Part shown: in pieces, positions 10,740 to 45,661 of the stretch
Layout: each line of letters opens with the position of its first letter
Numbering within the stretch: position 1 is the first letter of the stretch
Assembly (NCBI RefSeq): GCF_000758705.1
Contig: NZ_CP009287.1
Coordinates: 4,464,001 to 4,528,000 of the forward strand
Direction: 5' to 3'
DNA length: 64,000 nt
Origin: Paenibacillus graminis
Lineage (GTDB): Bacteria > Bacillota > Bacilli > Paenibacillales > Paenibacillaceae
Notes under the pieces: model-generated
Databases searched by the model: none
Told to the model about the DNA's origin: nothing
The model's input: only the letters and a program-made list of their open reading frames with translations
Translations under genes and position numbers: made by a program

Positions 10740-11010
10740 ATTTCTTCCTCTATTCTGATTCAGCTATTGAAGTCTTACCATTATATGCATTTCAATTGCA
10801 TTCAGCCGTGAATTCCGACACATACAGCAAAAAAAACCTGTCAGAAGCTCGATCCGTGTCAATAACGCCATGGGAGATAATACACGAAAATTACTTCTGA
10901 TAGTTGCATTGCCTGACTACGCTTTGGGGAAATCCTCGGATAGCATTCTTGAGGCTCTGATTTCTCTAAATAGTCCAATCTCGGACAAATTAACCGATCC
11001 TAGACGAATC

Positions 11011-11223
11011 AAGGTATTTATACCTTTGATTTCTCCATATGGACCGATCTCAGGCCAATCAAAGGTATTTATACCTCTGTTTTCTCCATATGGATCGATC
11101 TCAGACCAATCAAGGGTATTTTTACCTCTATTTTCTCCATATGGACCGATCTCTGGCCAATCAAGGGTATTTATACCTCTGTTTTCTCCATATGGACTAA
11201 TCTCTGGCCAATCAAGGGTATTT
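11011..11223. repeat. 51-bp tandem repeat array (AAGGTATTTATACC type)
   Basis: Four 51-bp units begin at 11011, 11062, 11113 and 11164, with a short fifth start at 11215 and a degenerate copy near 10959-10990. Each unit carries AAGGTA-TTTA-TACCTT or a close variant (a small hairpin) and most carry the palindrome CCATATGG. Because 51 is a multiple of three, both strands are open and encode 17-residue repeats, but nothing else suggests a protein. The rest of the 10740-11302 gap holds an AT-rich segment with a TATAAT-like motif on the minus strand near 10777 and no gene. Confidence 0.9.
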
Positions 11224-12282: not shown

Positions 12283-12626
12283 GAACAAAACGGCTGCGCC
12301 GTCCTTGATTGGATAAGGTAGCTGGTTGGGATTTCAGTTTAGCGTTGCCTGGAGAACCCTTTATGAATCCTTCGGCAATTCTAAGTGGAAAAAGGGTAAC
12401 TAATTTGCTCGTGCACCATGTTCCCCGCAAGTTTAGTGGAAAAAGGATAACTAATTCAGCTCATTTCACTCCTGAAGAAGGAATATGGCCCAATTAAGTT
12501 TCCTTTTTCCACTTGAAGCTCACATTTGTTGATTTCAGGGAAGAATAAGTTCCCTTTTTCCAACTAGCGCTGCAAAGAAGCAAGCAAGTAAGCAGTGCTA
12601 GCTGGAAAAAAGCTATCGAATCCGGC
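12283..12626. repeat. Dispersed intergenic repeat, copy 1 (~345 bp)
   Basis: This stretch matches 33127-33472 along its whole length and 45430-45620 in its middle. It opens with GAACAAAACGGCTGCGCC, contains two direct copies of a GTGGAAAAAGG..AACTAATT motif and, further on, two CCTTTTTCCACTT/CCTTTTTCCAACT motifs that are their inverse complements, and ends with TGGAAAAAAGCTATCG. Small open frames inside it are not credible genes. It fills most of the 12050-12737 gap. Confidence 0.88.
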
Positions 12627-20110: not shown

Positions 20111-20167
20111 CCTTCCCTAGCTCTCTACCCGCCCTATCTTACGACATAAATTCCCTGCACAAAGGCA

Positions 20168-20391
20168 TACCTGCCTTCGGCCCTTCAACAACGGCATTTC
20201 TGCCGTTGTTTCCAGGCTTACCTGCCTTCGGCCCCTCAACAACGGCATTTCTGCCGTTGTTTCCGGTCATACCTGCCTTCGGCTCTTCATCAACGGCATT
20301 TCTGCCGTTGTTTCCAGGCTTACCTGCCTTCGGCCCCTCAACAACGGCATTTCTGCCGTTGTTTCCAGGCTTACCTGCCTTCGGTCCTTCA
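20168..20391. repeat. 51-bp hairpin repeat array, left part
   Basis: Units of exactly 51 bp begin (TACCTGCCTTCGG) at 20168, 20219, 20270, 20321 and 20372; the last is cut after 20 bases by the insertion sequence. Each full unit contains the perfect hairpin AACAACGGCA-TTTC-TGCCGTTGTT. Unit bodies differ at only a few positions. The array continues on the far side of the insertion sequence at 22357. Confidence 0.95.
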
Positions 20392-22356
20392 GGGGCTGTC
20401 CCAAAAGTAGATTTTCTATGAAGGGGGACAGTTCTCTTCATTCTTAAAACCACAAAAAGTGAGCAGAGCAGCGATTCTCCCGTTACTGGAGAATCGCTGC
20501 TCTGCGTTCTTGGTCATTGGCTGCTTGCTTTAGCAGATTATGGGCGAGGGAAAGCCACCCGACTTCGAGGGTCACTTTTTCCATCCCTCGAAGCAGAAAT
20601 CGCCGGAAGCCCCGGTTGTTCTTCAGTTGTCCAAACACACTCTCCGGTTCTGTCATCCGGCGCACGGCCAAATCGTAACCTTCTTCACTCCGTAGAATCT
20701 CCCGAGCCTGACTTTGGTACCGCAGCCGTTCCAAACTGACGACCACTTCCCGATTTCCCGTCGTTTTTGTACAACGTTCCTTCAGTAGGCAACCAGCGCA
20801 ACTTGGGCTACGGTAATGACGTTTTCTGATTTTATATCCGCTCTCCAACGTTTCCTTGCTTTCTTTGCGGAAATGCAACGTTTGTCCGGCTGGGCATGTC
20901 CATGTATCCCCGGCTTCGTCGTACGTCCAGTTCTCAATCTTTCCGATACTCTCTTTCCAGGCTTTGCTCTTTTCTTTGTGGTAGCTCCCGTATTTGACCA
21001 CGGCCTTCACGTGTTCGTTTTCCAAATACGCATAGTTCTCTTCACTGCCGTAGCCTGCATCCGCAATCACCGCCCTCGGAAGCTTCCCCAGGATCTGTCT
21101 TGCTTTTTCCAAATGTGGCTGCAAGCAGCGGGTATCGGTGGGTCTTTGGTGTAGACTGTAGGCCAAAATAAACTGGTTTTCGGTCCCAATCTGTACATTG
21201 TAGCCCGGTTTGAGTTGACCATTTCGCATGTGATCTTCCTTCATCCGCATGAAGGTGGCATCCGGGTCCGTCTTACTGAAGCTGTTTCGGTCCCCGAGCA
21301 GGGTTTGGTATTGCTCATATTTCAGCAGTCTGGGCAGCAGATCCTTGCGGAGCTGCCGAACGGCTTTTTTCAGTGGTTTGTCCTTAGGCTTGTCCAGCAG
21401 TTGCGACTCTAGCTCCCGGGTCATTTGTTCAAGTTTCTCACTACTCATCTCGGTGGGCTCACCTAGTTCGCTCAGGTCTTGGCCGCGGTGTTCCTGTTCT
21501 TCTTGTTCCTCCGCAGCCTCAATGTCGGCAAACAATGTATGTACCTTTTCTTGCAGCTTGGACTTATGTTTACTAACGGCTTTCCCCCAAACAAAGGTGT
21601 AGCGATTGGCATTGGCCTCGATCTTGGTACCATCCACAAAGTAATGCTCCAGAGACACGTATTTTTCGTCAGCCAGAAACTGAAGCACGGCTGTAAATAC
21701 CGTTTCAAGGACATTCCTCATTCGCTGGGAACGGAAGCGATTCAGCGTGCGAAAGTTGGGGCGTTGCCGTCCGGCGATCCACATAAAGGGAATGTTCTCC
21801 CGTACTGCTTTGGCGATTTGACGAGAGGAATACATTCGCTGGGCGTAAGCGTAGATAATGACTTTGGTGAGCATCTTAGGGTGATAGCTGTCGCGGCCGC
21901 CGCCGGGGTAAGCCGCGTCAAAGATGGCGTCGTCTAGCCGATTTATAGCGGCATTCACGACACGAACGAGGTGGTTTTCTGGAAATATCTTCTTCTAAAT
22001 CCATTGGCAGGTAAAGTTGGTCCATGGTATATTGAATGTACAAAGAAATCGCTCCTTTTGAGATGGTTGGTGGTACTTCCATTTTACCAAAAGGGCGATT
22101 TCTTTTGTGATTTAAGAGAAGAATTTAGAAACTTTTCCCGCTTAAACAGCGGAGAGGACGGACTGATTGTGGAAAAGCGGAAGCGTTCGCCTTGGTCTCC
22201 GGATTTTCACCGCTAAGGGGAATAAAAAAAATCTGGAGAGCACAGCGATTGGAACAACGGTCTGTTCGCGCAGCGTCCACCCAAGTACTCACGTTGATCC
22301 TACTTAAAAACAGAGGGCTATCCCAAGCGCCATTTCATGGCTTTTGGGACAGCCCC
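20392..22356 (-). mobile_element. IS1182-type insertion sequence
   Basis: About 1965 bp bounded by perfect 16-bp terminal inverted repeats: GGGGCTGTCCCAAAAG at 20392-20407 and its complement at 22341-22356. It contains one IS1182-type transposase gene on the minus strand, and next to its stop a perfect 18-bp stem (around 20465-20508). The right end carries two more hairpins, TCTCCGGATTTT/AAAATCTGGAGA near 22195-22233 and one formed by GGCTATCCCAAGCGCCAT with the right terminus. It lies inside a 51-bp hairpin repeat unit; no target duplication is visible. Confidence 0.92.
20483..22043 (-). pseudogene. IS1182-type transposase, frameshifted near its N-terminus
   Basis: The main frame (20483-21958, 491 residues) starts with NAAINRLDDAIFDAAYPGGGR and contains IS1182 features: AYAQRMYSSRQIAKAVREN, FVDGTKIEANANRYTFVW, ADAGYGSEENY and a C-terminal EPESVFGQLKNNRGFRRF. 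Upstream, a TTG at 22043 (AAGGAG eight bases before it) opens a frame encoding YIQYTMDQLYLPMDLEEDI, the expected family N-terminus. The two frames are joined only if one T is removed near 21983-21986 (ATTTCC for ATTCC), which restores IPENHLVRVVNAA. It is thus a one-base insertion; programmed frameshifting is possible but no classic slippery site is seen. Confidence 0.85.
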
Positions 22357-22675
22357 TTCCAGGCTTACCTGCCTTCGGCCACTCAACAAAGGCATTTCTG
22401 CCGTTGTTTCCAGGCTTACCTGCCTTCGGTCCTTCAACAACGGCATTTCTGCCGTTGTTTCAGGCTTACCTGCCTTCGGCCACTCAACAAAGGCATTTCT
22501 GCCGTTGTTTCCGGTCATACCTGCCCTCGGCACTTCAACAACGGCATTTCTGCCGTTGTTTCCGGTCATACCTGCCTTCGGCTCTTCAACAACGGCATTT
22601 CTGCCGTTGTTTCCAGGCTTACCTGCCTTCGGCCCTTCAACAACGGCGTTTCTCTGCCGTTGTTTCCGGTCCACA
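22357..22675. repeat. 51-bp hairpin repeat array, right part
   Basis: Starting with the last bases of the interrupted unit, further units begin at 22366, 22417, 22467, 22518, 22569 and 22620. One unit is a base short (22417-22466). The hairpin is the same as in the left part, with some arms reading CAACAAAGG or CAACAACGGCG, so a few stems have a mismatch. Confidence 0.95.
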
Positions 22676-22789: not shown

Positions 22790-22874
22790 GTCCGCCCGCC
22801 GCATGTTTCTGCGGCAGGCATTGCCTTGCCTACATTGTCAAGCCGGAACGTTTACAAGGCGTCTTCTTGCCTTA

Positions 22875-23233
22875 CTTCCGCCGGAACGCTTACCCCCGGC
22901 CTCTTGCCCTGCTTCCGCCGGAACGCTTACCAACCGGCCTTTTTGCCCTGCTTCCGCCGGAACGCTTACCCCCGGCCTCTTGCCCTGCTTCCGCCGGAAC
23001 GCTTACCACCCGGCCTCTCGCCCTGCTTCCGCCGGAACGCTTACCAACCGGCCTCTTGCCCTGCTTCCGCCGGAACGCTTACCACCCGGCCTCTCGCCCT
23101 GCTTCCGCCGGAACGCTTACCCCCGGCCTCTTGCCCTGCTTCCGCCGGAACGCTTACCAACCGGCCTCTTGCCCTGCTTCCGCCGGAACGCTTACCAACC
23201 GGCCTCTCGCCCTGCTTCCGCCGGAACGCTTAC
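22875..23233. repeat. 37-39 bp tandem array in the 3' UTR of the aldo/keto reductase gene
   Basis: Ten starts of CTTCCGCCGGAACGCTTACC at 22875, 22912, 22951, 22988, 23026, 23064, 23102, 23139, 23177 and 23215. Units vary only in a short ACC(A/C)nCCGG segment and in TT/TC before GCCCTG. A looser copy precedes the first. Each unit has the palindrome TTCCGCCGGAA. The last unit runs into the reductase gene and supplies its TAA stop. The open frames here are repeats without stops rather than genes. Confidence 0.95.
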
Positions 23234-24204
23234 CAGGCGTAAGCCTCCGGTGCCGGGCGGCCCGGTCCCGGGAAAATCTCGTCCAGCTTCTTCAGCGCAT
23301 CCGCTTCGAGCACGATCTCGGTCACTCTCAGCGAGTCCTCGAACTGTTCGAGCGTCCGCGGCCCGATAATCGGCGCGGTCACCGCCGGATTGGCCAGCAC
23401 CCAGGCCAGCGCCACCTGGTCTTCATGCTCCCCGAGCTCCTTGCAGAGCGCGGAGAACTGCTCCAGCTGGCTGCGGTGCTGCTCCAGCTTGGCCGAGCGG
23501 GCGCTGCGCACGCCGGTCTTGGACAGCGCATTGCGTCCCAGCAGGCCGCCGGCCAGCGGACTCCAAGGAATGACTCCCAGGCCCAGCTCCTGCGAAGCCG
23601 GAAGGACCTCCAGTTCCGGTGTCCGTTCCAGCAGGTTGTACAGATGCTGCTCGGAGACAAGCCCGAGGAAATGGCGTTCCTTGGCCTTAGCCTGGGCGGA
23701 GGCAATATGCCAGCCCGCAAAATTGCTGGACCCGATGTAATCGGCTTTGCCCTGGGAAACCAGAATTTCAAAAGCCCCCCACAGCTCATCCCAGGAAACA
23801 TTGCGGTCAATATGATGCATCTGGTACAGTTCAATATGGTCGGTCTGCAGGCGTTTCAGCGAGCCTTCAAAATGCCGTCTGATCTTGTATGCGGACAAAC
23901 CGGGGCCTGAATTGGGGCCGTCCTGCTCGTCGAACATATCATTGTATACCTTGGTCGCCAGCACGACCTTCTCCCGCCGGCCGCCGCCCTGCTGAAACCA
24001 GCGGCCGATAATTTCTTCGGTCCAGCCGCGCCGGTCATTACCGCCATACACGTTGGCGGTATCAAAAAAGTTGATGCCCGCATCCAAGGCGGCATCCATA
24101 ATCTGGAATGCTTCTTTCTCCTCAGTCTCCGGACCAAAATTCATCGTCCCCAAGCATAATTGGCTGACCTTCAAACCGGATTTTCCCAAATAACTGTACT
24201 TCAT
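23230..24204 (-). CDS. Aldo/keto reductase
   Basis: 324 residues. An NADPH-dependent TIM-barrel oxidoreductase: the tetrad is visible as Asp and Tyr in FFDTANVYG, Lys in LATKVY and His in YQMHH; the cofactor loop shows WSPLAGGLL and a late IIGPRTLEQ. The substrate is not predictable. The ATG at 24204 follows GGGAGG. The promoter has a MerR-type shape, and the 3' end is embedded in a tandem repeat array, so the last codons EAYAW adjoin repeat DNA. Confidence 0.93.
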   Translation of the reverse strand: MKYSYLGKSGLKVSQLCLGTMNFGPETEEKEAFQIMDAALDAGINFFDTANVYGGNDRRGWTEEIIGRWFQQGGGRREKVVLATKVYNDMFDEQDGPNSGPGLSAYKIRRHFEGSLKRLQTDHIELYQMHHIDRNVSWDELWGAFEILVSQGKADYIGSSNFAGWHIASAQAKAKERHFLGLVSEQHLYNLLERTPELEVLPASQELGLGVIPWSPLAGGLLGRNALSKTGVRSARSAKLEQHRSQLEQFSALCKELGEHEDQVALAWVLANPAVTAPIIGPRTLEQFEDSLRVTEIVLEADALKKLDEIFPGPGRPAPEAYAW

Positions 24205-44759: not shown

Positions 44760-44902
44760 CCGGAATGGCCTTCTGGGAGAGCGGTAATACAGTTTCGGAC
44801 GATTTTCACAGGCGAGCGGACGAATTTCCTGCTGCCGCCTTTCTGATCCTCCCTGTGAGGGCTAAAGAAAGGCTGGTCTGCCTTTGTATCCAGGCAGACC
44901 AG

Positions 44903-45361
44903 CCTACGGCACTCCAACAACGGCAGTTCTGCCGTTGTTTCTGCACAAACCCGCCTACGGCGCTCCAACAACGGCAGTTTTGCCGTTGTTTCTGCATAAA
45001 CCCGCCTACGGCGCTCCAACAACGGCAGTTTTGCCGTTGTTTCTGCACAAACCCGCCTACGGCGCTCCAACAACGGCAGTTTTGCCGTTGTTTCTGCACA
45101 TCCCCGCCTACGGCGCTCCAACAACGGCAGTTTTGCCGTTGTTTCTGCACATACCCGCCTACGGCGCTCCAACAACGGCAGTTTTGCCGTTGTTTCTGCA
45201 CAAACCCGCCTACGGCGCTCCAACAACGGCAGTTCTGCCGTTGTTTCTGCATAAACCCGCCTACGGCGCTCCAACAACGGCAGTTCTGCCGTTGTTTCTG
45301 CACAAACCCGCCTACGGCGCTCCAACAACGGCAGTTTTGCCGTTGTTTCTGCACATCCCCC
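44903..45361. repeat. 51-bp hairpin repeat array, nine units
   Basis: Nine exact 51-bp units begin (CCTACGG) at 44903 and every 51 bases to 45311. Each holds the perfect stem AACAACGGCA/TGCCGTTGTT with loop GTTC or GTTT; most differences between units are in the loop or in the CACAAA/CATAAA/CACATC spacer. The hairpin is the same as in the 20.2-22.7 kb arrays, although the flanks differ. It lies in the 44686-45939 gap, where I see no gene. Confidence 0.95.
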
Positions 45362-45429
45362 TAACGGGGCCCGTTCAAAAAGTTTGTGTAAGAAGTGCAC
45401 GTATCTTCTTTACGCTTCATTAGTTGTTT

Positions 45430-45620
45430 AGGTGGAAAAAGTATAACTAATTTGCTTGAGCATCGAGCAACCCGGCAGGCTAAGTGGAAAAAGGCACACT
45501 AATTCAGCCCGTTTCGCTCCATATAAGGGAAAATTGCTAAATTAAGTTCCTTTTTTCCACTTAAATCTCTCGATTGTTGATTTCTTAGGAATTTAAGTTC
45601 CTTTTTTCCACTTGGCTTGC
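45430..45620. repeat. Dispersed intergenic repeat, partial copy 3
   Basis: It carries the two GTGGAAAAAG..ACTAATT motifs and the two inverse TTAAGTTCCTTTTTTCCACTT motifs of the ~345-bp repeat, but lacks the first ~100 and last ~50 bases. It follows the nine-unit hairpin array and is followed directly by a lone hairpin unit. Confidence 0.82.
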
Positions 45621-45621
45621 C

Positions 45622-45661
45622 GCTTCGGCGCTCCAACAACGGCAGTTCTGCCGTTGCTTCT
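45622..45661. repeat. Single 51-bp-family hairpin unit
   Basis: CTTCGGCGCTCCAACAACGGCAG-TTC-TGCCGTTGCTTCT matches the core of the nine-unit array but stands alone. Confidence 0.85.

Follow-up and report, generated by a model that had tools for sequence, protein, structure and literature searches.

Tandem hairpin repeats with a 51-bp period in Paenibacillus are oriented with replication

Introduction

The tandem hairpin repeats described here were noticed in a 64,000-nucleotide stretch of the Paenibacillus graminis chromosome (contig NZ_CP009287.1, positions 4,464,001 to 4,528,000; the window in what follows, and its genome the host), and several described systems come close to them. Mycobacterial interspersed repetitive unit and variable-number tandem repeat (MIRU/VNTR) loci are tandem intergenic repeats of about 50 bp present at many loci, and we know of no fork orientation or hairpin covariation in them. 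The FtsK-orienting polar sequences (KOPS) and SpoIIIE recognition sequences (SRS) are 8-mers oriented with replication. Our arrays show the same type of leading-strand skew, and differ in being long hairpin arrays for which about half of the genus genomes searched gave no match to our model of the unit (model R1, described below).

Repetitive extragenic palindromic (REP) sequences and bacterial interspersed mosaic elements (BIMEs) are likewise short extragenic hairpins, present in hundreds of copies, clustered, and targeted by insertion sequences (IS). BIMEs alternate the orientation of their units, according to a passage of PMC2817692, whereas the arrays here run head-to-tail at 51 bp and are oriented with replication. 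They also differ in the Y1 transposase, which as the REP-associated tyrosine transposase (RAYT) is a defining partner of REPs: its Pfam family PF01797 has no match in 11 of the 35 array-rich genomes (those with at least 30 model hits), genomes G059, G039 and G076 among these. This excludes a Y1 transposase as the agent in at least those 11 genomes, and we reject REP/RAYT membership. An earlier sequence-only reading of the window had considered REP/BIME-like behaviour possible, which fits loosely with the interspersed hairpins and their use as IS targets, and does not fit as to the transposase.

The pneumococcal BOX elements, with their tandem boxB, share with our arrays a dispersed intergenic hairpin module, a variable tandem number, and over-representation between convergent genes. 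Of the BOX, RUP and SPRITE elements, 60.8-63.3% are on the leading strand, which mirrors the coding bias, in the portion of PMC3049150 at hand, whereas 94-100% of the arrays here are on the leading strand, compared to 66-71% of genes. We noticed no end modules similar to boxA or boxC, although end modules were not modelled, and unit extension finds no fixed ends. The IS200/IS605 family (IS608, ISDra2) has terminal secondary structures and uses the lagging-strand template, as excerpts of PMC6006769 describe; the arrays need no Y1 transposase, and they are tandem without defined ends. By the tests made, the arrays resemble interspersed palindromic repeats such as REP and BOX, yet they are members of neither. 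Literature searches, with subscription journals mostly outside them, found no description of this 51-bp hairpin repeat. The passages seen of PMC10030826 have nothing of this kind, and PMC5670726 has neither "repeat" nor "hairpin" and uses "stem-loop" in one riboswitch passage.

The unit of this superfamily has 51 bp: a 4-nt A-rich loop sits on a stem that reaches at most 10 bp, and the remainder is a 27-nt spacer, which is variable. Units follow each other head-to-tail. The main new fact is that array orientation tracks replication. It follows replication and not genes, and the rule is strong while the exceptions to it, though few, are real.

Array orientation follows replication

The host chromosome is one 7.17-Mb contig with dnaA at base 88, and its GC skew is positive at the contig start, negative at the end, and flips at 3.65 Mb. 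Most A-rich loops of the right half of the chromosome are on the + strand, and most of those in the left half are on the - strand. In a 1.99-Mb sample of the host (20 stretches totalling 390 kb chosen around hits or contig ends, the other 80 being contiguous blocks), we find 33 clusters of two or more units. Of these, 32 are scorable and 30 are on the leading strand, compared to 1195 of 1690 genes (71%), a gene count in which the open reading frame (ORF) mask produced some false ORFs around arrays. By the cruder criterion of the loop alone, there are 38 host clusters, a few of them chance clusters inside genes, and 34 of the 38 are on the leading strand. In genome G059, with stretches chosen around model hits, all 27 clusters are on the leading strand, compared to 248 of 377 genes (66%). 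These clusters make up 25 loci, and an IS splits two of the loci.

Clusters keep to the fork whichever way their flanking genes point. In the host, the clusters oriented with the fork are 5/5 between two lagging-strand genes, 11/12 between convergent genes, 4/4 between divergent genes and 10/11 between two leading-strand genes, so that 20 of the 21 clusters lacking two leading-strand flanks go with the fork. In G059 the corresponding number is 14/14, and both clusters with two lagging-strand flanks go with the fork as well. Orientation as a by-product of gene strand is rejected by these counts.

A base-composition artefact is rejected by exact hairpin words, counted on the leading and lagging strands without single copies and without shorter words contained in longer ones. 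The host words have leading:lagging counts of 86:0, 15:0, 14:0, 11:0 and 10:0, with GGCAAAAATGCC at 6:1, and the G059 words have 70:0, 51:0, 10:0 and 5:0, with GGCATAAATGCC at 17:2. Since words reach 86:0 and 70:0, a skew in base composition is not the cause of the orientation. The orientation of the spacer, corrected for composition, agrees in 23/23 G059 arrays and 15/20 host arrays.

Among the model matches listed for G059, all are on the + strand below 3.54 Mb and all on the - strand above 4.55 Mb. None of those listed falls between 3.54 and 4.55 Mb, around the terminus. The matches listed for G039, G047 and G076 form the same two-block pattern, with a shifted start in G076 and one exception in G047.

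Unit plan, spacing and stem covariation

Paenibacillus units have GGNA/TNCC at the top of the stem, next to the A-rich 4-nt loop, followed by a 27-nt spacer specific to each array. Scans without any spacing requirement place consecutive hairpins 51 bp apart in 180 of 195 G059 steps and in 165 of 196 host steps; the other steps are mostly 50 or 52 bp (9 of the 195 in G059). The modal period is 51 in 27/27 G059 and 25/26 host clusters of three or more units. Tandem Repeats Finder gives 55 rows in the host sample that have 2.9 or more copies and a period of 25-120, and in 29 of these the period is 51.

The sequence-only reading had suggested a covariation check of the stem, and the stem does covary between arrays and species. 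In 113 array units, pair 9-16, which the search pattern leaves free, is Watson-Crick in 97 units where 41 are expected, and uses three pair types. Pair 6-19 is Watson-Crick in 98 where 49 are expected. A score cut and an 82% identity filter leave 62 non-redundant units. Their covariation score is 0.311, compared to 0.125 in shuffled alignments (0/500 shuffles reach it) and at most 0.089 when the partner is slid, and 84.4% of the cells are paired, compared to 74.1% in shuffles. None of these 62 units comes from the host and one comes from G059, outside the arrays tested there. Six alignment columns are fixed by the scan pattern and thus carry no covariation information. As for a second stem within the spacer, small hairpins fold in some arrays, and no strongly covarying pair is found there.

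Occurrence in the host, the genus and beyond

The host chromosome has 244 copies of the stem pattern CAACGGNANNNNTNCCGTTG and none of its reversed control. A three-hairpin pattern with 51-bp steps identifies at least 120 stretches in named genomes. Of those listed, 84 have Paenibacillus titles, and the species include jilunlii, phytohabitans, piscarius, tritici, albidus, camerounensis, ihuae and others; the remaining 36, with non-Paenibacillus titles, look unrelated by their consensus. These 36, together with three Paenibacillus stretches without such units, were excluded from the unit analyses, a judgement of title and consensus for all 39.

Model R1 was built from the 62 units above. It has matches with an expectation value of 1e-5 or lower in at least 47 of 100 genus genomes, and within the order in at least 33 of 296 genomes, of which 31 are within the genus and two outside, these with single weak hits. 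The model searches scored a subset of candidates per genome, so these counts are lower bounds, and "no match" is no proof of absence. The arrays are therefore no locus-specific satellite, an outcome that the sequence-only reading had proposed to settle by searching other Paenibacillus genomes. We also reject an origin from phages or plasmids, as none of 120 listed pattern-matched viral loci has a cluster of two or more units, and two arrays that were tested have no match in phage or plasmid records.

Change of arrays between relatives

The same site can hold different numbers of units. At the site of array B of the window, the host has 9 units, its close relatives G052 and G047 have 4 and 2, and three further relatives, G026, G054 and G059, have none. 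At the site of array C, G029 has 7 units, G047 one or two, and G052 has instead an element of a second repeat type, T3. Unit identity within arrays is 0.92-0.94, while the best unit consensus in another array has 0.61-0.94. From such states in different relatives, we infer that arrays arise in place, and that they lengthen, shorten and homogenise there.

Two further observations concern the history of the arrays. The intergenic place of array A is also occupied in G059 (at 4624351) and in G076 (L411, 14240-15216), by arrays with other stems; arrays with different stems at one place in distant species suggest either shared ancestry with turnover or a hotspot. Amongst 105 arrays of at least four units, read in the forward direction, identity is lower in the last hairpin (0.894) than in the first (0.933; p 0.002), as if decay or growth took place at one end of the array.

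Insertion sequences and the T3 repeat

One rve-type IS (Pfam rve) has eight identical copies in G059 (L441-L448, at 243558, 1844639, 1875975, 2347091, 2567648, 4597036, 4880455 and 5280882). By inspection of the flanks, seven are in hairpin arrays and one is in T3. In two of the arrays the IS sits in a hairpin loop, and the 4-bp target repeat is the loop itself. REPs are known as IS targets too, as reported in an excerpt of PMC1525189.

The T3 motif, near GTGGAAAAAGTATNACTAAT, typically appears in four copies, two in each direction, at about 0, 51, 117 and 168 bp, and thus has a 51-bp step without this hairpin. There are 35 T3 loci in the host sample, often beside hairpin arrays. In the window, a T3 repeat adjoins array B (45426-45617), with two forward and two reverse GTGGAAAAAG-like motifs spaced 51-52 bp within pairs, and another T3 element lies near array C (12385-12573, the end being approximate), with motifs at 12385, 12436 and 12502.

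The arrays of the window

The sequence-only reading had described hairpins at two loci of the window with a shared stem and a 51-bp period, and both loci are confirmed. The stem AACAACGGCA occurs 36 times on both strands of the window, where shuffles give 0.16 and 0/100 shuffles reach 36, and Tandem Repeats Finder reports period 51 at 20163-20391, 22357-22667 and 44898-45355. The first two are parts of one array, and the reading had missed the IS between them: 20.16-22.67 kb is a single array of 10 hairpins (array A) interrupted by an IS. Its left part (20163-20391, - strand) has 4 hairpins (20187-20363) with period 51 and stem AACAACGGCA/TGCCGTTGTT; the forward unit, the one with the A-rich loop, is on the - strand, here the leading one. 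Its right part (22357-22667, - strand) has 6 hairpins (22385-22664). The IS (20392-22356, - strand) is separate from the repeat. Its ends are inverted (GGGGCTGTCCCAAAAG/CTTTTGGGACAGCCCC), and its ORF at 20483-21958 on the - strand codes for a DDE transposase (Pfam DDE_Tnp_1_6/DUF772). One hairpin expected at the IS junction is absent.

Array B (44898-45355, - strand) has 9 hairpins (44916-45347) with period 51, and a lone unit of the AACAACGGCA stem type follows at 45635-45658 on the - strand, with one stem mismatch. A third array, array C (10993-11223, - strand), had been overlooked, so the two loci were not the full extent. It has 4 hairpins and a partial fifth with period 51, of the stem family ATCAAAGGTA/TACCTTTGAT; its unit type ATCAAAGGTA-TTTA-TACCTTTGAT has the period and anatomy of A and B and a different stem sequence. 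The period said to be exact is broken in array A by one 50-bp step, between the hairpins at 22436 and 22486, and by a loop 2 nt longer in the final unit. The 10-bp stem said to be perfect has a mismatch in four units of array A (20289, 22385, 22486 and 22639) and in the lone unit. The DNA between hairpins does differ by locus, as had been said, but its length is constant: in all three arrays, 27 nt separate the 24-nt hairpins of the 51-bp unit.

All three arrays sit between conserved genes, array A between a YetF-like gene and an aldo/keto reductase, array B between a transporter permease and an FAA hydrolase, and array C between a SpoIIE/PAS protein and a peptidase M24. Relatives without an array keep the neighbourhood, in agreement with the intergenic position given by the sequence-only reading. 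A 38-bp tandem repeat of 10.4 copies at 22842-23235, which adjoins the 3' end of the aldo/keto reductase gene, has no 51-bp relation.

Coding potential and RNA

The arrays appear to be intergenic and non-coding, as judged from reading frames. With the arrays of the host and G059 overwritten with stops before ORF calling, all of them fall in gaps, a result that is partly built in. Among 31 clusters of the host and 27 of G059 checked against raw ORFs, 15 are touched by an ORF that has 150 or more codons outside the array; by inspection, most of these ORFs overlap only the array margin, and one starts well inside (L420). Three of the 58 clusters (host 1150181, L424 and L437) are crossed by an ORF, with 155-190 codons outside the array. 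The best reading frame is open in 19/26 and 16/27 arrays, and it is not the same frame. With no common open frame, and with most length changes being of one base, a repeat-containing protein gene is rejected.

A structured RNA, which the sequence-only reading had considered, finds agreement in the covarying stem. No Rfam family reaches its gathering score anywhere in the window, and G-U and A-C cells (16 versus 11 in the three inner variable pairs) give no clear strand preference. Gaps between convergent genes make up 11 of 29 array-bearing gaps and 207 of 1064 others (p 0.03).

Discussion

Four things are observed directly: the hairpin is conserved, the arrays are oriented, copy number differs between genomes at one locus, and an IS targets the repeats. 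Our leading explanation, which we hold tentatively, is that these tandem repeats, with their replication-set orientation, form hairpins in the lagging-strand template and act there as single-stranded DNA. In the right replichore, this template is the + strand. Because the strand with the A-rich loop equals it in sequence, the conserved hairpin would be the form exposed as single-stranded DNA at the fork. Such hairpins may let arrays gain, lose and homogenise units by slippage or template switching, and new units would be placed in one direction only. A trans-acting partner, if any, need not be a Y1 transposase. Whatever the arrays may give to the cell, it can probably do without them, since 53 of the 100 genus genomes have no model match in a strict search that gives a lower bound on presence. 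IS608 and ISDra2, which target the lagging-strand template in the passages seen of PMC6006769, provide a precedent. A bolder version, which we take as possible rather than probable, is a DNA element that lives at the fork, its units copied, homogenised and inserted solely as lagging-template single strands by a non-Y1 factor, so that hundreds of them per chromosome would record fork direction.

Several results weigh against this explanation. On orientation, 2 of the 32 scorable clusters of the host sample are off the leading strand. Two full arrays, at 6590603-6591113 in G047 (11 units) and at 4002076-4002558 in the host (G000; 9 units), oppose the fork where the local GC skew is normal for the replichore. 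In the host array at 684.7-685.6 kb, most units have their higher score on the lagging strand, one further lagging-strand hit at host 1575895 is among the matches listed, and the host arrays at 2.64, 3.00 and 3.58 Mb score nearly equally on both strands. The T-richer loop is on the leading strand in 12/205 host and 2/198 G059 tandem hairpins. On the stem, two of five covariation measures are not above shuffles (two-sided-change pairs, 5 versus 5.8; further pair types, 13 versus 13.3), and the two outer pairs are each formed in just 34 of the 62 units. On propagation, a constant 51-bp spacing across diverged spacers suggests a constraint beyond slippage alone. Array boundaries, as seen by unit extension, have no fixed phase, and therefore no defined insertion unit is found. 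The host site is empty for four of the five G059 array loci with two-sided synteny in the host sample (six rows were compared, two of which are one IS-split array), and the intergenic sequences at the empty sites are too poorly alignable to reveal the mode of insertion.

The main rival, which we rate as somewhat unlikely, is that of oriented protein-binding sites. The hairpins would be duplex palindromes bound cooperatively every ~5 helical turns (51 bp), with an orientation kept by selection, and the asymmetric loop and spacer would give a direction for replication or segregation, as SRS and KOPS do when read by SpoIIIE and FtsK. This explains the fixed spacing better than single-stranded hairpins do, given that the spacers have diverged and that deviations are mostly of one base, not three (in G059, the 180 steps of 51 bp and the 9 of 50 or 52). 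It also agrees with the near-complete orientation, and with T3 as a second repeat type of 51-bp spacing that often adjoins the arrays. But such sites would probably be dispensable, going by the same 53 genomes and the same bound, and full wrong-way arrays persist. KOPS-type sites are expected to be dense around the terminus, whereas the 3.54-4.55 Mb region of G059 is empty among the matches listed. No short invariant SRS-like motif was seen in all arrays, although no systematic motif search was made.

Selfish elements similar to REPs and BIMEs or to miniature inverted-repeat transposable elements (MITEs) could have their orientation set by a transposase that uses single-stranded DNA at the fork, as IS200/IS605 elements do. 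We consider this unlikely. The interspersed hairpins at many loci per genome, the array-free sites in relatives, and IS targeting as described for REPs (PMC1525189, in the part seen) are what it predicts, and Y1 matches are somewhat commoner in array-rich genomes (24/35) than in genomes without model hits (27/53). However, of the 11 array-rich genomes without a PF01797 match, six are single-contig assemblies, arrays have no fixed ends, and recent copying between loci looks rare, to judge from the identities between arrays relative to those within them.

Less likely again is a structured RNA or 3' untranslated region element, transcribed mostly with the fork as most genes are. Stem covariation and some excess between convergent genes are in its favour, but the orientation ignores gene direction (lagging-flanked clusters with the fork are 5/5 in the host and 2/2 in G059), and it has to contend with the lack of a clear strand preference between G-U and A-C and the absent Rfam match in the window. 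Neutral satellites that arise by random tandem duplication, with no function or special propagation, would fit the same-locus copy-number differences and the array-specific spacers, but they leave stem covariation, the common 51-bp period and the replication orientation unexplained, and are largely refuted already.

A nearly full fork polarity that is independent of genes points to either a replication-coupled spread, as in the single-stranded hairpin mechanism that we prefer, or to a polar chromosomal function. Known repeats such as BOX, RUP and SPRITE follow instead the gene strand bias, in the portion of PMC3049150 cited above. In practice, the arrays may mark the direction of the fork in a sequence, provide rapidly varying loci for typing, and offer a model of IS targeting.

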